Of a stretch of DNA of 64,000 nucleotides, positions 42,618-55,260 are shown piece after piece; positions within the stretch are counted from its first letter, which is position 1, and every line of letters begins with the position of its first letter. Under the pieces are notes generated by a model that searched no databases, was not told the origin of the DNA, and saw only the letters and a program-made list of their open reading frames with translations. The position numbers and the translations under genes were made by a program. This DNA is from an uncultured Burkholderiales bacterium (GTDB lineage: Bacteria > Pseudomonadota > Gammaproteobacteria > Burkholderiales > Burkholderiaceae), in assembly GCA_946480465.1 (NCBI GenBank), contig CAMLJY010000001.1, positions 153,008 to 217,007 of the forward strand, given 5' to 3'.

Positions 42618-43247
42618 TCAGGCCTTGGCGGGAGAGTTCGCGCCCAGCGCGATCTTCAGCAGGTCGGCCACGGTGTTGGCGTTCAGCTTTTCCATGATGT
42701 TGGCGCGGTGCGCCTCCACCGTCTTGATGCTGATGCCCAGGTCGTCGGCGATCTGCTTGTTCAGGCGACCGGCGACGATGCGCTCCAGCACCTGCGCCTC
42801 GCGCGTGGTCAGGCGGCTCAGCAGGGCGTCGCGGCTGGCTTGTTCCTGGTGCTGGCTGAAGGAAGCGCGCGCCTGGTCCAGCATGCGTTCGACCAGGCCC
42901 AGCAGGTCGTCTTCCTTGAACGGCTTCTCGATGAAGTCCATCGCGCCCTTCTTCATCGTGGTCACGGCCATCGGCACGTCGCCGTGGCCGGTGATGAAGA
43001 CGACCGGCAGCGGGCTCTTGCGCTCGAGCAGCCGGTCTTGCAGTTCCAGCCCGCTCATGCCTTCCATGCGGATGTCGGCGATCAGGCAGGCGACCTCGCG
43101 TGGGTCGAAGCGCGACAGGAAAGACTCCGCGGAGTCGAAGCACTTCACGCGGTAGTCCTTGCCCTCCAGCAGCCACTGCAGGGAATCGCGCACGGCCTCG
43201 TCGTCGTCGACGACGTACACGGTGCCTTTCTTCGGAATCAGGCTCAT
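42618..43247 (-). CDS. FixJ-family response regulator
   Basis: This encodes 209 residues. The receiver domain has the acidic pocket (YVVDDDEAVRDSLQWLL), phosphorylation site Asp58 in CLIADIRM, and the conserved Lys108 in FIEKPF. The LuxR-type helix-turn-helix follows (LTTREAQVLERIVAGRLNKQ, then ISIKTVEAHRANIMEKLNAN, about residues 146-200). It would activate transcription when phosphorylated by the kinase encoded 4 nt upstream. It belongs to a kinase-regulator pair divergent from aceE, so the pyruvate dehydrogenase operon is a candidate target. That target is inference. Confidence 0.94.
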   Translation of the reverse strand: MSLIPKKGTVYVVDDDEAVRDSLQWLLEGKDYRVKCFDSAESFLSRFDPREVACLIADIRMEGMSGLELQDRLLERKSPLPVVFITGHGDVPMAVTTMKKGAMDFIEKPFKEDDLLGLVERMLDQARASFSQHQEQASRDALLSRLTTREAQVLERIVAGRLNKQIADDLGISIKTVEAHRANIMEKLNANTVADLLKIALGANSPAKA

Positions 43248-45955
43248 GAGGTGGAGTTCGCAGCAGGTGGCGCGGCGGAGGTCGGGGAGATGGGCTGCGT
43301 CGAAAGCGCCTGGGAAACCCTGGAGGACAGGGGGGGCGGGGGCAGCGTTGTCTCCTCGTGCCGCGCGGTGGTTTCGACGGGCAGGGTGAAGGCGAACCTA
43401 CAACCTGCAACAGAGGCGCCATTGTAGATGTTCTGTGCCTTGATCCGCCCCCGGTGGGACTCCACGATGGACCGGCACAAGGACAGGCCGATGCCCATGC
43501 CTTCGGCCTTGGTGGAGAAGAAGGCTTCGTAGAGGCGGTTGATCACTTCCTCGGGCAAGCCCGGGCCCATGTCGGTGACGCTGAACTCGATCACGCCGCC
43601 TTCTTCCGGCGTGTGGCGCGGGATCACCCGCAGCTCGATGTGGCGGCGCGCCGCCGGCAGCTTGGCCGAGTCGATCGCCTCTGCGGCGTTCTTCAGCAGG
43701 TTCAGCAGCACCTGCTCGATCAGGATCGGGTCGCACTTCAGCACCGGCAGGCGCTGCGCCACGTAGTGGTGGATGGCGACGTTGCGGCGCCGCAGTTCGA
43801 TGCTGGCCAGCTCCACCGCATCCTCGACGATGTCCTTCGCATGGGCCGGCTGGCGCTGCGGCTCGCTCTTCTTCACGAACGCGCGGATGCGGTGGATGAT
43901 CTGCCCGGCCCGCTCGGCCTGGCGCGCGGTCTTCTCCAGCGCGGCGATCAGGTCGGCCTGCTGGATGGTCTCGGCCTTCACGCGCGAGACCATGCCGCTG
44001 CAGTAGTTGGTGATGGCGGTGAGCGGCTGGTTCAGCTCGTGCGCGACCGACGAGGCCATCTCGCCCATCGTGATCAGCCGGCTCGAGACCTGGGCCTTCT
44101 CGGCCTGCGCGGCGGCCTGTTCCTCGGCGCGGCGGCGGGCGGTGATGTCGGTGGCGATCAGCATCTGCGCCAGGCGGCCGTCGGTCCACTGCAGGTAGCG
44201 CGAACGCACGTCGAACCATTTGTCCAGCTGGTGCACGTAGACCTCGCGCGGGTTGGTGCCGATGCCGGTCAGCTCCTGCGCCGGCAGGCCGGACAGGCCG
44301 TCCACCGCGTCGTCCGGCTCGGCGATGAAGGGCACGGCCGGGCCCGCGCCGCTGGCCAGCAGCGCATGGCCACGCGCCTCGGCGCCGAACCACAGGCGGT
44401 AGGAGCGGTTGGCGAACAGCAGCTCGCCCTGCTGCACCGAGAGCACCGACACCGCCGCGTCCAGGCCTTCCAGCACGGTGGTGAAGCGCTCGTGCGAGGC
44501 CGACAGCTGGTCGCGGATGCGCTTGGCCTCGGTGATGTTGGTCATCGAGGTCATCCAGCCGGTCTGGTGGCCGCGCGCGTCCACCAGCGGCGAGACGTAC
44601 ATGCGCGCATCGAACAGCGTGCCGTTCTTGCGCATCACCTTCACCTCGATGCCGCCGGCGGGGCTGCGGCCCTGCAGTTCCTGCTGCAGCAGGCGCGAGT
44701 TCTCCTCGATGCGGTCGTGCGGCCAGTAGGGGTAGGGCGGCAGGCGTCCGATCAGCTCATGCTCGGTGAAGCCGGTCATCGCGCAGAAAGCGGGGTTGAC
44801 GTAGCTGACGCGTCCTTCGAGGTCCATCGCCCGCATGCCGGTCAGCATCGAGTTTTCCATCGCCCGGCGGAAGTTGGTCTCCGCCACCAGCGCGCCCTGG
44901 ATCTGCCCGCGCCGGCGCATGTGGCGCCAGGTGCCCAGCAGCATCCACACCGTCAGCACCGACAGCGCCACCACCATCCAGAACAGCGTGTTGCCGATCA
45001 GGCCGACGGAGGTGCGGTAGCCGGTGCCGCGCAGGATCAGGCCGTTGGCGGCCGGGGCCAGCGGTACGTCGTGCACGATGGATGCGGGCACGCGAGCCGG
45101 GCCCGGCATGGGGGTGACGGAGCTGGCGATCACGCGCTCGCGTTCGTCCACCACGGCGATGGCGTGGCGGCCGGTCACTTCGCTGGGTACGAAGTGGCGC
45201 AGCAGCACGTCGATGGAATATTCGACGACCAGCGCGCCGGAGAAGCTGCCCTTGTCCAGCAGCGGAACGTGCAACTCGAAGACGAGGGTGCCGGCCGGAT
45301 CCTTGAAGGGGCGGGAGTAGATCGGCTGGCGCACGTCGCGCGCGGCGATGAAGGCCCAGTCGGCCTCGCTGGGGCGGCCGGCATTGGCGGCGGCGTTGGC
45401 AGCGGCCACGGCGGCGGCGCTGGCGGCCTCTTCAGCAGCGGTTGCAGCAGCCGTTGCAGCGGCGTTGCCGCGGCGCTTGCTGGGCGCGGGCACCGTGATC
45501 TTTGCCGGCGGCAGCTCACGTTCGAAGTACGCGGTCTGGCGCGCGCGCACCTGGCGTTCGGCGCCGATCCAGCTCAACTGCTGGATCTCCGGCCGGTCGG
45601 CGGTGAAGCGCGCGGCCTGGTCGAGGAAGCTCGCGCCATCGAGCTCGCGGGTGACGATCTCGCGTGCCATGCGCACCAACTGCTCCTGGTTCTCGATCAG
45701 GCGCAAGCGGATCTGCTGCTGCGCGATCTCGGTGTCGCGCTTGACGGCTTCGGCCTCGCGCTCGATTTCCTCGTTCCGCAGGTACCAGAAGGCCGAAATG
45801 ATGGCCGCCAGGAACAGCAGCACCGACGCCAGCGGCGCCAGCGTCGCGAAGCGGTCCTGCCGTGCCGGGGACTGGCGCCGCCACCACCGGCCAAGCAGGC
45901 GCCGGCCGATGGGGGCCGAGGCGGAAGGGACGGTGGAGCGCGCGTTCAGGGGCAT
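43244..45955 (-). CDS. FixL/DctB-like PAS sensor histidine kinase
   Basis: This encodes 903 residues from the ATG at 45955; a GTG at 45994 is less likely. Helix 39-58 and a second helix (TLFWMVVALSVLTVWMLLGT) bound a periplasmic sensor domain. PAS domains follow (ENSMLTGMRAMDLEGRVSYV and a second near HERFTTVLEGLDAAVSV), then the histidine kinase: H-box SSVAHELNQPLTAI, N-box NLLKNAAEAI, G-boxes DMGPGLP and GMGIGLSLCRSI. The periplasmic part holds an alanine-rich insert at residues 164-192. It phosphorylates the FixJ-like regulator. The signal is unknown; no haem-binding PAS His was checked with confidence. Confidence 0.93.
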   Translation of the reverse strand: MPLNARSTVPSASAPIGRRLLGRWWRRQSPARQDRFATLAPLASVLLFLAAIISAFWYLRNEEIEREAEAVKRDTEIAQQQIRLRLIENQEQLVRMAREIVTRELDGASFLDQAARFTADRPEIQQLSWIGAERQVRARQTAYFERELPPAKITVPAPSKRRGNAAATAAATAAEEAASAAAVAAANAAANAGRPSEADWAFIAARDVRQPIYSRPFKDPAGTLVFELHVPLLDKGSFSGALVVEYSIDVLLRHFVPSEVTGRHAIAVVDERERVIASSVTPMPGPARVPASIVHDVPLAPAANGLILRGTGYRTSVGLIGNTLFWMVVALSVLTVWMLLGTWRHMRRRGQIQGALVAETNFRRAMENSMLTGMRAMDLEGRVSYVNPAFCAMTGFTEHELIGRLPPYPYWPHDRIEENSRLLQQELQGRSPAGGIEVKVMRKNGTLFDARMYVSPLVDARGHQTGWMTSMTNITEAKRIRDQLSASHERFTTVLEGLDAAVSVLSVQQGELLFANRSYRLWFGAEARGHALLASGAGPAVPFIAEPDDAVDGLSGLPAQELTGIGTNPREVYVHQLDKWFDVRSRYLQWTDGRLAQMLIATDITARRRAEEQAAAQAEKAQVSSRLITMGEMASSVAHELNQPLTAITNYCSGMVSRVKAETIQQADLIAALEKTARQAERAGQIIHRIRAFVKKSEPQRQPAHAKDIVEDAVELASIELRRRNVAIHHYVAQRLPVLKCDPILIEQVLLNLLKNAAEAIDSAKLPAARRHIELRVIPRHTPEEGGVIEFSVTDMGPGLPEEVINRLYEAFFSTKAEGMGIGLSLCRSIVESHRGRIKAQNIYNGASVAGCRFAFTLPVETTARHEETTLPPPPLSSRVSQALSTQPISPTSAAPPAANSTS

Positions 45956-45995
45956 CGCCGAATTATCCCGGCGTGCCCCGTGACCGCCTGTCACG

Positions 45996-46055
45996 GATTC
46001 GGCGGTTGACCGCCGAATCGGCAGCGTCGCGGCTACGTAGTTTCACTATGCGAAA
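45996..46055. promoter_or_regulatory. Inverted repeats upstream of aceE
   Basis: Two symmetric elements lie between the kinase and aceE. One is an exact hairpin with arms GATTCGGCGG and CCGCCGAATC around TTGA (45996-46019). The second is a looser dyad TTTCAC-TAT-GCGAAA (46041-46055) of the kind that IclR- or GntR-type regulators often bind. Either could control aceE, the kinase gene, or both. Which protein binds is unknown. Confidence 0.55.
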
Positions 46056-46161
46056 GCTACTCGCATCATTTGGAAAGCGTGGGCAGTTGTGTCAAACTCC
46101 GCGCCGTCCGGCGTGGGGCGTTCCGCCACGCCCGCCGGCCCTCATTCCATCCCCGATCTGT

Positions 46162-46176
46162 CACAGGAGACAAGCG
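46162..46176 (+). promoter_or_regulatory. Extended ribosome binding site of aceE
   Basis: The 15-nt string CACAGGAGACAAGCG ends directly at the aceE ATG. The same 15 nt occur before phaC (58380-58394). AGGAG is the Shine-Dalgarno core. Confidence 0.8.
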
Positions 46177-48891
46177 ATGTCCGCAGTGCCCGAATCGTTT
46201 CTAGGCGCCGCCGCCAACGATGCCGATGCCCAGGAAACCCGTGAATGGCTGGACGCGCTGAACGCGGTCATTGCGAACGAGGGCCCCGAGCGCGCCCACT
46301 TCCTGCTGGAGCAACTGATCGGTGAAGCCCGCCAGGCCGGCATCGACCATCCCTTCTCGGCCAACACGGCCTACGTCAACACCATCCCCACCGACCAGGA
46401 AGAGCGCTGCCCCGGCAACCTCGAGATCGAGGAACGCCTGCGCGCCTACATGCGCTGGAACGCGATGGCGATGGTGGTCAAGGCCAACCGGCTCGACCCC
46501 GCTGACGGCGGCGACCTCGGCGGCCACATCTCCTCCTTCGCGTCGGTCGCCACGATGTTCGGCGCCGGCTTCAACCACTTCTGGCATGCCGCCACCGAAG
46601 ACCACGGCGGCGACCTGCTGTACATCCAGGGCCATTCCGCGCCTGGCGTCTACGCCCGCGCCTACATGGAAGGCCGCATCAGCGAAGAGCAGTTGCTGAA
46701 CTTCCGCCAGGAAGTGGACGGCAAGGGCCTGTCCAGCTACCCGCACCCGAAGCTGATGCCCGAGTTCTGGCAGTTCCCCACCGTCTCGATGGGCCTGGGG
46801 CCCTTGATGGCGATCTACCAGGCCCGATTCCTGAAGTACCTGCATGCCCGCGGCATCGCCGACACCAGCAAGCGCAAGGTCTGGGTCTTCTGCGGCGACG
46901 GCGAGATGGACGAGCCCGAATCGCTGGGCGCCATCGGCCTGGCCGCGCGCGAGAAGCTGGACAACCTGATCTTCGTCATCAACTGCAACCTGCAGCGCCT
47001 GGACGGCCCGGTGCGCGGCAACGGCAAGATCATCCAGGAACTGGAGAGCGAGTTCCGCGGCTCGGGCTGGAACGTGATCAAGCTGCTGTGGGGCGGCTAC
47101 TGGGATCCGCTGCTGGCGCGTGACAAGGACCACGTGCTGCGCAAGATCATGATGGACACGGTGGACGGCGACTACCAGGCCATGAAGGCCAACGACGGCG
47201 CCTACGTCCGCAAGCACTTCTTCGGCCAGCATCCGAAGGCGCTGGAGATGGTCGCCAAGATGACGGACGAGGACATCTGGCGTTTGCAGCGTGGCGGCCA
47301 CGACCCGCAGAAGGTCTACGCGGCCTACCACCGCGCCGTGAACCACAAGGGCCAGCCGACGGTGCTGCTGGTCAAGACCGTCAAGGGCTTCGGCATGGGC
47401 AAGGCCGCGGAAGGCAAGAACACCGCGCACCAGGCCAAGAAGCTGACGGACGACGACATCAAGGGCATGCGCGACCGCTTCAACATTCCGGTCAGCGACG
47501 AGCAGCTCGCCAAGGGCATCCCGTTCTACAAGCCGGCGGACGACACGCCGGAAATGAAGTACCTGTTCGAGCGCCGCAAGGCCCTGGGCGGCTACCTGCC
47601 GCAGCGCCGCCCGAAGGCGGACGAGCAGCTGGCCGTGCCGCCGCTGGAGACCTTCAAGGCCGTGCTGGAACCCACCGCGGAAGGCCGCGAGATCAGCACC
47701 ACGCAGGCCTACGTGCGCTTCCTCACCGCGCTGCTGCGCGACAAGCAGCTGGGCCCGCGCACCGTGCCGATCCTGGTCGACGAGGCGCGCACCTTCGGCA
47801 TGGAGGGCCTGTTCCGCCAGATCGGCATCTACAACCCCGAAGGGCAGAAGTACACCCCGGTCGATAAGGACCAGGTGATGTACTACAAGGAAGACAAGGC
47901 CGGCCAGATCCTGCAGGAAGGCATCAACGAAGCGGGCGGCATGGGCTCGTGGATCGCCGCGGCGACGTCGTACTCGACGAACAACCGCATCATGATCCCG
48001 TTCTACGTCTACTACTCGATGTTCGGCTTCCAGCGCATCGGCGACCTGGCCTGGGCCGCGGGCGACATGCAGGCGCGCGGCTTCCTGCTGGGCGGCACCT
48101 CGGGCCGCACCACGCTGAACGGCGAAGGCCTGCAGCACGAGGACGGCCACAGCCACATCCTGGCCGGCACCATCCCGAACTGCGTGACCTACGACCCGAC
48201 CTTCGCGCACGAGGTGGCGGTGATCATGCACCACGGCCTGAAGCGCATGGTCGAGAAGCAGGACAACGTCTTCTACTACCTGACGCTGCTGAACGAGAAC
48301 TACGCGATGCCGGGCCTGACCGCCGGCACCGAAGAGCAGATCATCAAGGGCATGTACCTGCTGCAGGATGCGAAGGTGAAGGCCAAGCAGCCGGCGGTGA
48401 ACCTGCTGGGCTCGGGCACCATCCTGCGCGAATCGATGGCCGCGAAGGAGCTGCTGGAGAACGACTGGGGCGTGGCCGCCAAGGTGTGGAGCTGCCCCAG
48501 CTTCAACGAGATGGCGCGCGACGGCCAGAACTGCGAGCGCCACAACCTGCTGCACCCGACCGAGACGCCGCAGGTGCCCTTCATCGCGCAGCAGCTGGAA
48601 AAGCATGCCGGCCCGGTCATCGCGTCGACCGACTACATGAAGAACTACTGCGAGCAGGTGCGTCCGTTCCTGCCCAAGGGCCGCTCATTCAAGGTGCTGG
48701 GCACCGACGGCTTCGGCCGCAGCGACTTCCGCAGCAAGCTGCGCGAGCACTTCGAGGTGAACCGCCACTACATCGTCGTCGCCGCGCTGAAGACGCTGGC
48801 CGACGAGGGCACGATCCCCGCCACCAAGGCGGCCGAGGCCATCAAGAAGTACGGCATCAATCCTGAGAAGATCAACCCGCTCTACGCATAA
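46177..48891 (+). CDS. aceE: Pyruvate dehydrogenase E1 component
   Basis: This encodes 904 residues of the homodimeric E1 enzyme. It decarboxylates pyruvate with thiamine diphosphate and passes the hydroxyethyl group to lipoyl-AceF. The ThDP site GDGEMDEPESLGAIGLA lies near residue 230, with VINCNLQRLDGPVRGNGKII after it. The ATP/loop region RRKALGGYLPQRR and the partner domain QHEDGHSHILAGTIPNCVTY complete the family pattern. The length is near E. coli AceE (887). It begins the operon aceE-aceF-[Thr protease]-lpdA. The start has the CACAGGAGACAAGCG leader shared with phaC. Confidence 0.97.
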   Translation: MSAVPESFLGAAANDADAQETREWLDALNAVIANEGPERAHFLLEQLIGEARQAGIDHPFSANTAYVNTIPTDQEERCPGNLEIEERLRAYMRWNAMAMVVKANRLDPADGGDLGGHISSFASVATMFGAGFNHFWHAATEDHGGDLLYIQGHSAPGVYARAYMEGRISEEQLLNFRQEVDGKGLSSYPHPKLMPEFWQFPTVSMGLGPLMAIYQARFLKYLHARGIADTSKRKVWVFCGDGEMDEPESLGAIGLAAREKLDNLIFVINCNLQRLDGPVRGNGKIIQELESEFRGSGWNVIKLLWGGYWDPLLARDKDHVLRKIMMDTVDGDYQAMKANDGAYVRKHFFGQHPKALEMVAKMTDEDIWRLQRGGHDPQKVYAAYHRAVNHKGQPTVLLVKTVKGFGMGKAAEGKNTAHQAKKLTDDDIKGMRDRFNIPVSDEQLAKGIPFYKPADDTPEMKYLFERRKALGGYLPQRRPKADEQLAVPPLETFKAVLEPTAEGREISTTQAYVRFLTALLRDKQLGPRTVPILVDEARTFGMEGLFRQIGIYNPEGQKYTPVDKDQVMYYKEDKAGQILQEGINEAGGMGSWIAAATSYSTNNRIMIPFYVYYSMFGFQRIGDLAWAAGDMQARGFLLGGTSGRTTLNGEGLQHEDGHSHILAGTIPNCVTYDPTFAHEVAVIMHHGLKRMVEKQDNVFYYLTLLNENYAMPGLTAGTEEQIIKGMYLLQDAKVKAKQPAVNLLGSGTILRESMAAKELLENDWGVAAKVWSCPSFNEMARDGQNCERHNLLHPTETPQVPFIAQQLEKHAGPVIASTDYMKNYCEQVRPFLPKGRSFKVLGTDGFGRSDFRSKLREHFEVNRHYIVVAALKTLADEGTIPATKAAEAIKKYGINPEKINPLYA

Positions 48892-48915
48892 CTCGAACCC
48901 GCGGAGACAACAGCC

Positions 48916-50598
48916 ATGGCATTGGTGGAAGTGAAGGTTCCGGACATCGGCGACTTCAAGGACGTCGCGGTGATCGAGCTGCTGGTGAAGCCCGGCGACA
49001 CGGTGAAGGCGGAGCAGAGCCTGGTCACGGTGGAGTCGGACAAGGCATCGATGGAAATCCCGTCGAGCCATGCCGGCGTCGTGAAGGAGCTGAAGGTCGC
49101 GATCGGCGACAAGGTCAACGAGGGCTCGGTGCTGCTGATGCTGGAGGCTGAGGGCGGTGCCGCCGCGGCGCCGGCTCCGGCGCCCGCTGCGGCAGCGCCT
49201 GCACCGGCTCCCGCGCAGGCGGCTGCCCCGGCGCCCGCGCCGGCCGCGCCCGCGGCCTCCGCGACGTCCGGTGGCCTGGTCGACGTGCTGGTGCCCGACA
49301 TCGGCGACTTCGCCGAGGTCGCGGTGATCGAGGTGATGGTCAAGCCCGGCGACACCATCAAGGTGGAGCAGAGCCTGATCACCGTCGAGTCCGACAAGGC
49401 CTCGATGGAGATCCCGTCCTCGCACGCCGGCGTGGTGAAGGAAGTGAAGGTCAAGCTCGGCGACAAGGTGTCCAAGGGTTCGCTGGTGCTAACGCTTGAA
49501 GCTGCTGGCGGCGCGCCTGCGGCCGCGCCGGCCGCTGCCGCAGCAGCACCGGCGCCGGCCACCGCGTCGGCCCCCGCCACGCCGGCGGCCGCGCCCGCCG
49601 AGCGCACGTCCCCCACCGCCGCGCTGCCCCCGCACGAGCCGGCCGCGCCCAGGGGCGCGCTGCCGCACGCGTCGCCGTCCATCCGCCGCTTCGCGCGTGA
49701 ACTGGGCGTGCCGCTGGAAGAAGTGAAGGGCACGGGCCCGAAGGGCCGCATCACGCAGGACGACCTGCAGGGCTTCGTCAAGAACGTGATGGCCGGCGCG
49801 GTGCAGACCGCGGCGCAGAAGGCCAAGGCCCCCGCCGGTGGCGCAGCCGCGGCCGGTGGCGCGTTCCCCGGCCTGCTGCCCTGGCCGCAGGTGGACTTCG
49901 CGAAGTTCGGCCCGGTCGAGCGCAAGGACCTGTCGCGCATCAAGAAGATCTCCGGCGCCAACCTGCACCGCAACTGGGTCGTGATCCCGCACGTCACCAA
50001 CCACGACGATGCCGACATCACCGACCTCGAAGCCTTCCGCGTCCAGCTGAACAAGGAAAACGAGAAGTCCGGCGTCAAGGTCACGATGCTGGCCTTCCTG
50101 ATCAAGGCCTCGGTCGCGGCGCTGAAGAAGTTCCCGGAGTTCAACAGCTCGCTCGATGGTGAGCAGCTGGTGATGAAGAACTACTTCCACATCGGCTTCG
50201 CGGCGGACACGCCGAACGGGCTGGTGGTGCCGGTGATCAAGGACGCCGACAAGAAGGGCGTGCTGCAGATCAGCCAGGAGATGAGCGAGCTGGCCAAGAA
50301 GGCGCGCGACGGCAAGCTGGGCCCGGCCGACATGTCCGGTGGCTGCTTCAGCATCTCGTCGCTGGGCGGCATCGGCGGGCGCTACTTCACGCCGATCATC
50401 AATGCGCCCGAGGTCTCGATCCTGGGCGTGTGCAAGAGCAGCACCGAGCCGCGCTGGGACGGCAAGCAGTTCGTGCCGCGCCTGATCCTGCCGCTGTCGC
50501 TGAGCTGGGACCACCGCGTGATCGACGGCGCCGCGGCCGCTCGCTTCAACGCCTATCTGGGAAGCCTGCTGGCCGACTTCCGCCGTATCCTCCTCTGA
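48916..50598 (+). CDS. aceF: Dihydrolipoyl acetyltransferase (E2)
   Basis: This encodes 560 residues. Two lipoyl domains are present with lipoyl-Lys at 43 and 161 (both in [11 protein letters not shown]), joined by Ala/Pro linkers. The E1/E3-binding PSBD follows (SIRRFARELGVPLEEVKGTG, about residues 254-290), then the catalytic core with the active-site motif SLSWDHRVIDGAAAARF. It forms the core of the complex and makes acetyl-CoA. It starts 24 bp after aceE. The first lipoyl domain is nearly identical to that of lpdA. Confidence 0.97.
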   Translation: MALVEVKVPDIGDFKDVAVIELLVKPGDTVKAEQSLVTVESDKASMEIPSSHAGVVKELKVAIGDKVNEGSVLLMLEAEGGAAAAPAPAPAAAAPAPAPAQAAAPAPAPAAPAASATSGGLVDVLVPDIGDFAEVAVIEVMVKPGDTIKVEQSLITVESDKASMEIPSSHAGVVKEVKVKLGDKVSKGSLVLTLEAAGGAPAAAPAAAAAAPAPATASAPATPAAAPAERTSPTAALPPHEPAAPRGALPHASPSIRRFARELGVPLEEVKGTGPKGRITQDDLQGFVKNVMAGAVQTAAQKAKAPAGGAAAAGGAFPGLLPWPQVDFAKFGPVERKDLSRIKKISGANLHRNWVVIPHVTNHDDADITDLEAFRVQLNKENEKSGVKVTMLAFLIKASVAALKKFPEFNSSLDGEQLVMKNYFHIGFAADTPNGLVVPVIKDADKKGVLQISQEMSELAKKARDGKLGPADMSGGCFSISSLGGIGGRYFTPIINAPEVSILGVCKSSTEPRWDGKQFVPRLILPLSLSWDHRVIDGAAAARFNAYLGSLLADFRRILL

Positions 50599-50614
50599 AC
50601 AAGGAGGGCCCACG

Positions 50615-51187
50615 ATGACGACCGTGGCAGTGGCAGTCCGGGGCGGGCAGGTGGCGATCGCCGCCGACGCCCTGGTGACGTTCGGCGACACGCGCCTCGC
50701 GCATGGCTACGAACAGAACGAGAAGGTGTTCCGCATCGGCGACTCCTGGGTCGGCATGGCGGGCACCACGGCCCACTTTCCGGTGCTGCGCAAGGCCCTG
50801 GGCGGACTGGCGCCGGAAGACCTGAAGCTGCACTCGCGCGACGAAGTGTTCGACACCTTCCTGAAGCTGCACCCCAAGCTGAAGGACCACTTCTTCCTGA
50901 ACACCAAGGAAGAAGACGCCGACCCGTACGAGAGCAGCCAGTTCACGGTGCTGATCGCCAATGCGAGCGGCATCTACGGCGTTTACTCGTACCGCGAGGT
51001 GTTCCAGTTCGACCGCTTCTGGGCCATCGGCTCGGGGCGCAGCTTCGCGCTGGGGGCGATGTACGCGGCCTGGGACAAGGCCAAGTCCGCGCGCGAGGTG
51101 GCCGAGACCGGCGTGCGCGCGGGCTGTGAATTCGACAAGAACTCCGCTGGACCGGTGAAGGTCCACACACTCAAGCTGAAGGGCTGA
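50615..51187 (+). CDS. Proteasome/HslV-fold threonine protease (BPH-like)
   Basis: This encodes 190 residues of the Ntn-hydrolase/proteasome beta fold. After Met removal Thr1 is exposed ([18 protein letters not shown]), Asp17 and a Lys (NEKVFRI) align with the HslV site, and [15 protein letters not shown] matches the serine loop. This corresponds to the beta-proteobacterial proteasome homologue (BPH), a tetradecameric protease described in this class. The ATG at 50615 follows AAGGAGG. It lies 16 bp after aceF and 4 bp before lpdA, inside the pyruvate dehydrogenase operon. No HslU or other ATPase is adjacent; native substrate and partner are unknown. Confidence 0.9.
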
Positions 51188-51191
51188 AGAG

Positions 51192-52961
51192 ATGGCACTG
51201 ATCGAAGTGAAGGTCCCGGACATCGGTGACTTCAAGGACGTCGCGGTGATCGAGCTGCTGGTGAAGCCCGGCGACGAGATCAAGGTCGAGCAGAGCCTGG
51301 TCACGGTGGAGTCGGACAAGGCCTCGATGGAGATCCCGTCGAGCGCGGCCGGCGTGGTCAGGGAACTGAAGGTCGCGATCGGCGACAAGGTGAACGAGGG
51401 CTCGGTGCTGCTGACGCTCGAAGCGAGCGGCCAGGCGGCTGCGGCGCCGGCACTGGCTCCCGCGCCCGCAGCGGCTGCACCCGCGCCTGCCGCTGCAGCG
51501 CCGGCAGCCGCACCGGCCGCCGCCAGCTATGCCGGCGGCGCCGACCTCGAATGCGACATGCTGGTCCTCGGCGCCGGCCCCGGCGGCTATTCCGCCGCCT
51601 TCCGCGCTGCGGATCTCGGCATGAAGACCGTGCTGGTCGAGCGCTTCCCCACGCTGGGCGGCGTCTGCCTGAACGTGGGCTGCATCCCGTCGAAGGCGCT
51701 GCTGCACGTGGCCGCGGTGATGGACGAGGCCAGCCACATGGCGGCGCTGGGCATCGACTTCGGCACGCCGAAGGTGGACCTCGGCAAGCTGCTCGCGCAC
51801 AAGAACAAGGTGGTGGGCAAGCTCACCGGCGGCCTGGCGGCGATGGCCAAGATGCGCAAGGTCACGGTGGTGCAGGGCGTCGGTACGTTTGCCGACCCGC
51901 ATCACCTGAGCGTGGCGATGGCCGACGGCAAGACGCAGACCATCCGCTTCAAGAACGCCATCATCGCGGCGGGCTCCGAAGCCGTGAAGCTGCCCTTCCT
52001 GCCCAAGGACGATCCCCGCATCGTCACCAGCACCGGCGCACTGGAACTGCGCCAGCAGCCGAAGAAGATGCTGGTGATCGGCGGCGGCATCATCGGCCTG
52101 GAAATGGGCACGGTGTACTCCACGCTCGGCGCTCGCCTGGACGTGGTGGAAATGCTGGACGGCCTGATGCAGGGCGCCGACCGCGACCTGGTCAAGGTGT
52201 GGCAGAAGATGAACACGCCGCGCTTTGACAACATCTGGCTCAAGACCAAGACCGTCGGCGCCGAGGCCACGAAGGACGGCATCAAGGTGCAGTTCGAGAG
52301 CGTGGACGGTGCGACGAAAACGGAAGGCCTGTACGACCTGGTGTTGCAGGCCGTCGGTCGGGTGCCCAACGGCAAGAAGATCGGCGCCGAGAAGGCCGGC
52401 GTCATCGTCGGTGACCGCGGCTTCATCCCGGTGGACGTGCAGATGCGCACCAACGTGCCGCACATCTTCGCCATCGGCGACATCGTCGGCCAGCCGATGC
52501 TGGCGCACAAGGCGGTGCACGAGGCGCACGTGGCGGCTGAGGTGGCGTCCGGCGACACCAAGGCCCAGTTCGACGCCCGCGTGATCCCGAGCGTGGCCTA
52601 CACCGATCCGGAAGTGGCCTGGGTCGGCCTGACCGAGGACGAGGCCAAGGCCCGCGGCATCAAGGTGAAGAAGGGCCTGTTCCCGTGGACGGCCTCGGGC
52701 CGCGCCATCGCCAACACGCGTGACGAAGGCTTCACCAAGCTCCTGTTCGACGCCGAGACGCACCGCATCGTCGGCGGCGGCATCGTCGGCACGCATGCCG
52801 GCGACATGATCGGCGAGGTCGCGCTGGCCATCGAGATGGGCGCGGACGAGGTGGACATCGGCAAGACCATCCACCCGCATCCGACGCTGGGCGAGAGCAT
52901 CGGCATGGCGGCTGAAGTGGCGCACGGCAGCTGCACCGACCTGCCGCCGCAGAAGCGCTGA
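51192..52961 (+). CDS. lpdA: Dihydrolipoyl dehydrogenase with lipoyl domain
   Basis: This encodes 589 residues, longer than the usual 475 because of an N-terminal lipoyl domain (Lys43 in [11 protein letters not shown]) and an Ala/Pro linker. The flavoprotein part has FAD-binding [18 protein letters not shown], the redox disulfide in [19 protein letters not shown]-binding [12 protein letters not shown], and the C-terminal [11 protein letters not shown] with the catalytic His-Glu. It reoxidises dihydrolipoyl-AceF. It ends the operon; a hairpin follows the stop. Lipoyl-E3 fusions are known in Burkholderiales and Neisseria. Confidence 0.96.
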
Positions 52962-52983
52962 TCCAGCGCAGCTGAGCGCGCGT

Positions 52984-52998
52984 CCCGGCACGGCCGGG
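52984..52998 (+). terminator. GC-rich hairpin after lpdA
   Basis: The arms CCCGGC and GCCGGG flank a 3-nt loop, 23 bp past the lpdA stop. No T tract follows, so it is a weak or Rho-assisted terminator candidate for the pyruvate dehydrogenase operon. Confidence 0.45.
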
Positions 52999-53118
52999 TG
53001 CGCACTATCGCCGCGATCCCGGGGCGGCAAGGCGGGGCGGGGGAGCCTGCGGCTCAAGTCCTGCGGGCCGGTGGCCGACAAGCGAGAGAGGCGCGTCTCT
53101 TTGCGCGCTCCCCTCGCC

Positions 53119-55260
53119 ATGCCCCTCGCCCTCGATCCTGCCGCCGTCCCTCCTGCCGACCACCGTGCCGCGGCCGCCGGGGCTTCCCCACGGCCACCCG
53201 AGGCGCAAGCCCCCGACGCTGCTGCTCCGGCCGAGGCACGGCCCCTGCATGCGCGGCTGCAGTGGGTGGTGTTCATCGTCGTCGCCGTGTGCCTGTTGAA
53301 CGCGCTGCTGGTCCAGCAGTGGGCGGCGCGGGAGGCGCTGGTCCAGCAGCTGGCGCGGCACAACCGCGAAAGCGCGGCCTGGTTGGCGCTGGCCCTCGGC
53401 AGCGAGGGCGCGCGCAGCGCCGAGCAGCGCGACGCTTGGCTGGCCAGCCATGCCGCCGCGGCAGGTTTGCAGCTGGTGCAGCTGCGCAATGCCGAAGGCC
53501 GTGTGCTGTGGCAGCAGCGCGCCGACATCCAGCCGGCGTCGGCCCCGCAGTTCTACACCGCGCTGCTCGACCTGCAGGCCCCACCCGGGCTCGGCACGCT
53601 GCGCGGTGCCGACGGCAAGCCGGCCGGCACGGTGCTGGTGTCCGCCCAGGGCGGCGAGGCGGCGGATGCGCTGTGGCGCGGCCTGTGGCAGACCGCCCTG
53701 GCGCTGACCATGCTGGGCGGCGTGGTGATGCTGGTCGCGGCCTCGGCCGCAAGCCGGCTGCGCCGCGCGCTGGCGCAGGCGGTGGCGCAGGCCGATGCCT
53801 TTCGCGATGGACGCTGCAGCCGCGCCAGGCTGCCCAGCGTTCCCGAGCTGCGGCCATTGGCAGAGAGCATGAACCGCCTGGCCGATCGGGTGCAGGCGAT
53901 GTACGAGGCCACCGCGGCGGACCTGGAACGCCTGCGCCAGCAGGCGCACCTGGATGCGCTGACGGGCGTGCTGCAGCGGCGCCACTTCATCGCCCGGCTG
54001 GAGCAGGTGCTGAGCGGCGACCAGGCTGCCGGCCGGTGCGGCCTGCTGCTGCTGCGCCTGGCGGACCTGACCGGCATGAACCGCCGCATCGGCCATGCCG
54101 GCGCCGACCAGGTGCTGCGCACCATCGGCCAGACCTTGTTGAGCTATCCGCACCGCGCCGACGGCTGCTTTGCCGGGCGCCTCAACGGATCGGACTTCGC
54201 GCTGCTGCTGCCCGTCGGCGCGATGGCCGAGGAGACCGCGGCCACGCTGGTGCGCTCGCTGCGCATGCCGCTGGTGACGCTGGACGGTGCGGCCGCGGTG
54301 TCGGCCGGCGCGGTCGAGCTGCACGGGCCTTGCACTGCGCAGCAGGCGCTGGCGCTGGCGGACGATGCGCTGTGCCGGGCCGAGTCGCAGCGGCCGTTCA
54401 CGGCCGTGTGCCTGAGTGATTCGCACGAACTGACGCCGTATGGCGAGGCGATGTGGCAGCAGCGCCTGGCGCTCGCGCTGGAGCAGGGCCGGGTCACGCT
54501 GGCCGAATTCCCGGTCTGCACCGCCGACGGGCGCGTGCTGCACCTGGACTGCCCACTGCGGCTGCAGGTGGAGCCGGGTGGCCCGTACGAGCCGGCGTCC
54601 CGCTGGCTGGCGCAGGCGGCACGGGCGCGGCTCAGCGCGGCGATCGACGAACGTGCGATCGAGCTGGCGCTGCAGGCCATCGACAGCGATGGCCGTGCGC
54701 GCTGCGTCAACGTCTCGGCGCAATCGCTGGGCTTCAGCGACTTCATGGCGGCGGTGTCGCGCCGGCTGGAGGCATCGCCGCAGGCCGCCACCCGCCTGTG
54801 GATCGACCTGCCGGAATCGCTCGCGCTGGACCGGCCCGCGCTGGTGCAGGAGGCGTCGCGCCGCTGGCGGCCGCTGGGCGTCTACCTGGGGCTGGAACAT
54901 GCCGGCGAGGGCCTGGCCCGCATCAGCCGCCTGATCGACCTGGGCCTCGATTGCGTGCGCATCGACGCGCGCTTCATCGCCGGGCTGTCGCAGCCCGGCG
55001 CGCAGCCCGAGGCAGTGAGCTACCTGCGTGGCCTGGTGCAGCTGGTGCAGAACGTCGGCCTGTCGATCACGGCCGAAGGCGTGGGCTGTGCTTCGGACCT
55101 GGCCCTGCTGTGGAGCCTGGGCTTCGATGCGGCGACCGGCTCGGCGCTGAACATTGCGCCGGCCTCGAACGCCGCCGGCCAGGACACGACGCCACCGGCG
55201 GAAGCGGCCACGTCCGACAGCGCGGCGACCGCCGAGGGCACCGCCGGCAGCCTCAGCTGA
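53119..55260 (+). CDS. LapD-like degenerate GGDEF-EAL membrane protein
   Basis: This encodes 713 residues from the ATG at 53119; a GTG at 53071 is possible. It has a Pro/Ala-rich leader, helix 49-66, a periplasmic domain (about 67-190) like the LapD/MoxY N-terminal sensor, helix 191-211, a HAMP-like linker, then a GGDEF domain (about 275-440) and an EAL domain (about 460-690). Both are degenerate: RLNGSDF replaces GGDEF (residues 354-360), and the EAL and DDFG motifs are lost (AEFPVC, LEHAGEG). A c-di-GMP receptor role, as in LapD, is likely. No lapG is adjacent. Confidence 0.85.
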   Translation: MPLALDPAAVPPADHRAAAAGASPRPPEAQAPDAAAPAEARPLHARLQWVVFIVVAVCLLNALLVQQWAAREALVQQLARHNRESAAWLALALGSEGARSAEQRDAWLASHAAAAGLQLVQLRNAEGRVLWQQRADIQPASAPQFYTALLDLQAPPGLGTLRGADGKPAGTVLVSAQGGEAADALWRGLWQTALALTMLGGVVMLVAASAASRLRRALAQAVAQADAFRDGRCSRARLPSVPELRPLAESMNRLADRVQAMYEATAADLERLRQQAHLDALTGVLQRRHFIARLEQVLSGDQAAGRCGLLLLRLADLTGMNRRIGHAGADQVLRTIGQTLLSYPHRADGCFAGRLNGSDFALLLPVGAMAEETAATLVRSLRMPLVTLDGAAAVSAGAVELHGPCTAQQALALADDALCRAESQRPFTAVCLSDSHELTPYGEAMWQQRLALALEQGRVTLAEFPVCTADGRVLHLDCPLRLQVEPGGPYEPASRWLAQAARARLSAAIDERAIELALQAIDSDGRARCVNVSAQSLGFSDFMAAVSRRLEASPQAATRLWIDLPESLALDRPALVQEASRRWRPLGVYLGLEHAGEGLARISRLIDLGLDCVRIDARFIAGLSQPGAQPEAVSYLRGLVQLVQNVGLSITAEGVGCASDLALLWSLGFDAATGSALNIAPASNAAGQDTTPPAEAATSDSAATAEGTAGSLS

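Follow-up and report, generated by a model that had tools for sequence, protein, structure and literature searches.

Organization of the locus

The window (the whole 64,000-nucleotide stretch of DNA that was analyzed) contains a pyruvate dehydrogenase (PDH) operon on the + strand. The operon comprises aceE (46174..48891), encoding a homodimeric-type E1; aceF (48916..50598), encoding an E2 with two lipoyl domains, an E3-binding domain and a catalytic domain; and lpdA (51192..52961), encoding an E3 with an N-terminal lipoyl domain. The three products passed the cut-offs of TIGR00759, TIGR01348 and TIGR01350, respectively. Between aceF and lpdA, on the same strand, lies bph (50615..51187), which encodes a 190-aa BPH-type proteasome-like N-terminal-threonine hydrolase. 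Its reading frame starts with ATG at 50615 and stops with TGA at 51187, and Thr1 directly follows the start Met without a propeptide. The coordinates confirmed the spacing given by an earlier, sequence-only reading of this DNA, with 16 bp between aceF and bph and 4 bp between bph and lpdA. The 16-bp gap (50599..50614, + strand) contains a Shine-Dalgarno-like AAGGAGG at 50601-50607, 7 nt upstream of the bph ATG. From the short gaps we infer that bph is co-transcribed with aceF and lpdA. A scan of positions 45900-53300 returned no promoters and no + strand terminators; since 0.3 promoters were expected by chance and aceE also lacked one, the scan was powerless here. The operon is flanked by a gene for a LapD/MoxY-GGDEF-EAL protein (53071-55260), on the same strand ~110 bp after lpdA, and by a divergent gene for a PAS sensor histidine kinase (43244-45994) before aceE.

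The bph product belongs to the BPH family

We analyzed the bph product with family models, sequence searches and a predicted structure. The Pfam model PF00227 (Proteasome) scored 31.2 bits against a cut-off of 22.4, and the matches to solved structures were led by the BPH structures 5ovu (E 1.2e-76) and 5ovs (4.3e-34), with HslV at 6.9e-05. The AlphaFold2 model, built from a 25-row alignment, had a mean pLDDT of 81, with values below 50 at residues 23-32 and 96-102. A Foldseek search with this model placed 5ovu at the top of the PDB matches (E 5.7e-21, TM 0.81, 60% identity), so the protein is predicted to adopt the proteasome-type Ntn-hydrolase fold with the solved BPHs as its best match. On the other hand, the curated HslV models stayed far under their cut-offs (TIGR03692, 25.8 against 157.75; NF003964, 28 against 137), and the neighbors of the gene are aceF and lpdA rather than hslU. 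The HslV/BPH-class assignment of the sequence-only reading thus held up in the Pfam, structure-match and fold searches, none of which put a protein outside the Ntn-hydrolase fold first. The bph product is a genuine member of BPH, an already described family. BPH is regarded as a descendant of HslV. All 7 name-bearing entries among the 120 listed BPH relatives (P0004, P0013, P0015, P0039, P0052, P0072 and P0111) carry the NCBI name 'MFS transporter', which misnames a soluble protein of the proteasome fold.

In mature numbering the window BPH has Thr1, Asp17, Lys36 (Lys33 in the proteasome and Lys37 in Td-BPH) and Ser139, as the earlier reading had proposed, and the family pattern of Thr1 after Met with no propeptide, Asp17, Lys, Gly and Ser is complete. 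Among 188 BPH rows (181 distinct), position 1 was Thr in 187 and Ser in one, a count favored by the script, which preferred starts with T or S as the next residue. Position 17 was Asp in 186 rows and Glu in two, and the Lys was present in 188 of 188. Homologues therefore keep the mature Thr1, the loss of which would have spoken against the earlier reading. The single Ser1 form (L154) is an argG-group BPH (see below) from the same order; Ser1 forms are placed outside Betaproteobacteria in the available text of PMC5777263. The two Asp17-to-Glu forms (L210 and L214) are PDH-linked BPHs.

The protein also has a long acidic pore loop, assigned from the description in the accessible part of PMC5777263. 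The acidic segment NTKEEDADP (50900..50926, + strand; residues 96-104 from Met1) falls where model confidence is low, and across 106 PDH-group rows (99 distinct) the corresponding 14-column segment contained a mean of 4.1 acidic residues. The median dN/dS over 183 close, overlapping pairs of BPH genes was ~0.09, and none of the listed BPH matches (91 in the order sample and 61 in the family-group sample described below) had an internal stop. By these comparisons bph is under purifying selection, and its preservation goes beyond chance.

The biochemistry of two relatives has been described in PMC5777263, as far as its available passages go. Cm-BPH and Td-BPH form tetradecamers (a 14-subunit double ring), and epoxomicin and MG132 form adducts with Thr1; neither Cm-BPH nor Td-BPH cleaved peptides or casein. 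The expectation that the window protein should be active is therefore not safe, given that Cm-BPH, to which it is 60% identical, reacts with inhibitors yet is inert on peptides and casein in that account. We are nonetheless highly confident of the joint reading of the protein as a BPH, a member of this operon and a chamber-type hydrolase with threonine chemistry.

bph is present or absent at one site in the PDH operon

We analyzed the neighborhood of BPH genes in related genomes. Among the best 80 of 179 BPH relatives in GTDB genomes, lpdA was downstream in all 80 and aceF upstream in 79; the remaining locus (L049) is on a contig that ends 111 bases upstream. We then took 250 genomes from the family group to which the Aquabacterium humicola genome (G001) belongs and scored a BPH match at E<=1e-20. 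This search identified 61 carriers, and in all of them aceF was within 200 bases upstream on the same strand (shown by coordinates for 43, by newly fetched loci for 17 and by locus L191 for G249). Wherever the downstream side was checked, in the 18 fetched carriers of the 61, lpdA followed BPH. The end piece of AceF matched 245 of the 250 genomes; aceF was present with no BPH match in 184, and BPH was absent from 189 in total. Genome samples were drawn evenly from groups with a completeness of 95 requested, so that absences outside the inspected loci may partly be gaps. We inspected 40 non-carrier loci, hand-picked from the listed, higher-scoring aceF matches rather than at random, and in 40 out of 40 a lipoyl-bearing lpdA lay ~140 bases or less from aceF with no BPH between. 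At the loci inspected, bph is an insert at one site, either present or cleanly absent. Since lpdA comes directly after aceF in all these non-carriers, bph is dispensable for the PDH operon. The gene is also not confined to one or a few genomes, an outcome that would have undermined the sequence-only reading. The idea that BPH is tied to a lipoyl-bearing LpdA was rejected, as the lipoyl domain occurred in the 40 BPH-negative loci and likewise in each of the 17 newly fetched loci with BPH.

The constant position inside the operon in this near group would fit BPH being a protease dedicated to the quality control or maturation of the PDH complex, one that clears damaged or unassembled AceE, AceF or LpdA or trims their linkers. 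The earlier reading had likewise suggested that the gene is linked to how the dehydrogenase is assembled or turned over. However, the lipoyl-bearing LpdA is kept in every inspected operon that lacks BPH, and BPH is missing from most of the family group. The co-purification with AceE/AceF that the earlier reading proposed as a check has in effect been published for Cm-BPH: in the available text of PMC5777263, pull-downs from C. metallidurans contained no PDH subunit and no HslU. The dehydrogenase link is thus unsupported, and we consider a dedicated PDH role unlikely.

History of the PDH-linked gene

To place the window we compared AceF and LpdA. The nearest row was Aquabacterium humicola, 92% identical. 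In a quick tree built on AceF+LpdA from 97 of the 131 rows (half of L001-L080 left out, and 11 further loci dropped for short matches), BPH presence or absence changed at least 11 times, 6 of these changes being forced by starred branches; such counts do not separate gain from loss. BPH distances tracked AceF+LpdA distances (Mantel r 0.72, n=91, with 0 of 999 permutations as high). Because of this correlation and the carriers in deep branches, where the rows from outside the family were chosen as carriers, our reading is vertical descent of the PDH-linked BPH with repeated loss. A mobile gene was rejected, as BPH distances follow AceF+LpdA and 72,556 plasmid records gave no match. The constant site would be explained if the PDH placement arose once and the gene was lost repeatedly afterwards. 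The placement looks like a single vertically inherited event, and its constancy is therefore weak evidence for a PDH-specific job.

Three operon contexts correspond to three sequence groups

In a sample of 250 genomes of the order, 91 carried BPH at E<=1e-8. The contexts were PDH in 9 (8 from the neighbor check and G001, seen as L002), Hsp33/Hsp15 in 51, argG in 24, and other or cut in 7. In the middle identity group, 51 of the 57 loci were followed within 1500 bases, on the same strand, by Hsp33, an S4-domain Hsp15-like gene or both. The 25 loci of the distant group had ArgG upstream in 24, a DUF520 gene downstream in 22 and a Ppnp gene upstream in 17. In this group (L147-L171) the order is often ArgG, Ppnp, BPH and DUF520 on one strand, with all four present in 15 of 25. 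The DUF520 gene is presumably YajQ-type. Loci were labeled 'hsp33' or 'argG' according to how similar their BPH is to the window protein (>=44% identity or below), and the expected neighbor was absent in 6 of 57 and 1 of 25 loci, respectively.

A quick BPH tree was made from 129 of the 181 distinct rows, a set that omits about two thirds of L001-L080. A single branch (SH-aLRT 91, not starred) set the PDH-linked sequences apart, and another (100, starred) did so for the argG sequences. The three context labels required 2 changes, the minimum possible, although this clustering is partly built in since two labels were set by identity. The single PDH branch bears further on a dedicated PDH role, since the position may count as one event and not as 61; moreover, the other BPH groups sit in unrelated operons. 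A conserved strong Shine-Dalgarno sequence was considered as a sign of high expression and rejected, the core being found by a simple pattern in 26 of the 99 distinct PDH-group loci.

We noted six residues specific to the PDH group (>=90% there and <=15% in the other groups): V20, E32, F54, P55, D75 and Y125. We take positions 54-55 to be equivalent to pocket positions. Position 20 contacts ligands in proteasomes according to passages of PMC6274525, with related passages in PMC11452676. These residues, position 20 included, could mean a specialized substrate, and they count in favor of a dedicated PDH role. A variant of that idea is that the PDH-linked BPHs form a sub-family whose cleavage specificity is distinct (residues at position 20 and around 54-55) and which would act on the PDH machinery under particular conditions and be repeatedly lost where such control is unneeded; we regard this as quite improbable.

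The Hsp33/Hsp15 neighborhood of the middle group instead suggests a stress protease working with Hsp33/Hsp15-type responses, with the PDH placement a regulatory convenience. A stress link is also argued in the accessible part of PMC5777263. On the other hand, 8 PDH and 25 argG-group loci had no Hsp33/Hsp15 neighbor within 1500 bases. The stress tests reported in the same text were negative, and carbonylation patterns under oxidative stress were unchanged by BPH. We judge this reading to be rather doubtful.

HslU and the question of a partner ATPase

An AAA+ domain was found neither in aceE, aceF and lpdA nor in the two flanking genes. With the HslU and ClpX proteins of the Aquabacterium relative as queries, no match was found in the window at E<=0.1, in agreement with the sequence-only reading. 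As in other BPHs, an AAA+ partner gene does not adjoin bph, as judged from the operon and its two flanking genes for AAA+ domains and across the window for HslU and ClpX. In the Aquabacterium relative, a separate proteasome-family gene adjoins hslU.

An HslU match was present in 83 of 91 BPH carriers versus 108 of 159 non-carriers (Fisher p 2e-5, ignoring kinship and genome size), and all 9 PDH-linked order carriers were among the 83. A replacement of HslUV by BPH was thus not supported, co-occurrence being commoner than not (kinship uncorrected). Most carriers encode HslU somewhere else in the genome, which suggests that BPH supplements HslUV and does not stand in for it. The same enrichment would fit a BPH that works with HslU or another housekeeping AAA+ unfoldase. 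However, an HslU match at E<=1e-100 was missing from 8 of 91 carriers, and none exceeded the cut-off in G495 (L067, Caenimonas koreensis), in a search in which 6 of 7 genomes had one. In addition to the lack of HslU in the pull-downs, the available text of PMC5777263 reports that a partner ATPase was not found and that the HslU-contact residues are not conserved, and passages of PMC8665760 repeat that BPH has no known unfoldase. We consider this partnership very improbable.

A general role as the favored account

The account that we favor, tentatively and at somewhat short of an even chance, is a general, ATPase-independent degradation role that is not PDH-specific. BPH would lose Met1 and would assemble into a self-compartmentalizing barrel. 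With no need of an unfoldase, this chamber might then cleave peptides, or polypeptides that have already unfolded or been damaged. Its place in the PDH operon, which is well expressed, would mainly give BPH steady expression. Elsewhere the family adjoins Hsp33/Hsp15 or argG, and PDH is thus just one of its settings. We rate the general role no higher because published work saw neither activity nor a stress effect; the unchanged carbonylation counts against a general protease too, as does the observation, in the accessible part of PMC5777263, that BPH did not substitute for missing E. coli proteases.

Taken together, the family, location, gaps and active-site residues of the sequence-only reading stand, while its assured activity, dehydrogenase link and implied novelty do not. 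The location of BPH in the PDH operon is already in print for C. metallidurans; the available passages of PMC5777263 describe three contexts, namely argG (T. denitrificans), three PDH genes (C. metallidurans) and Hsp33 (Laribacter). New here are the quantified presence/absence census and the finding that the sequence groups of BPH match their contexts. A search of the openly searchable literature, judged by titles and the starts of abstracts and with most subscription papers outside it, found no later functional study. Structures of this compartmental protease family have been solved, but the literature searched gives no substrate, activator or phenotype for BPH. The census offers a natural comparison between relatives that differ in bph while their PDH operons are otherwise similar, and the three groups in three operons are the set needed to ask whether operon context matters.

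Comparison with known systems

The closest known system is Cm-BPH (C. metallidurans Rmet_1198, PDB 5ovu), which is 60-61% identical over nearly the whole length and alike in fold and active site. Its pore loop has five successive acidic residues according to the available text of PMC5777263, whereas the window BPH has KEEDAD. Td-BPH of Thiobacillus denitrificans (5ovs, 5ovt) is of the same family at about 35% identity; it lies in an argG context in the same source, while the window BPH is in a PDH operon. HslV (ClpQ) shares the fold and catalytic residues with the window BPH, but the latter scored 25.8 bits on the HslV model against the cut-off of 157.75, and hslU was not found in the window. 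Anbu is likewise a proteasome-like hydrolase of bacteria for which no partner ATPase is known (PMC5666114, in part). It was absent among the 4 sequence matches and among the 50 listed of 1174 fold matches of the window BPH, and passages of PMC8665760 describe it as an open split ring.
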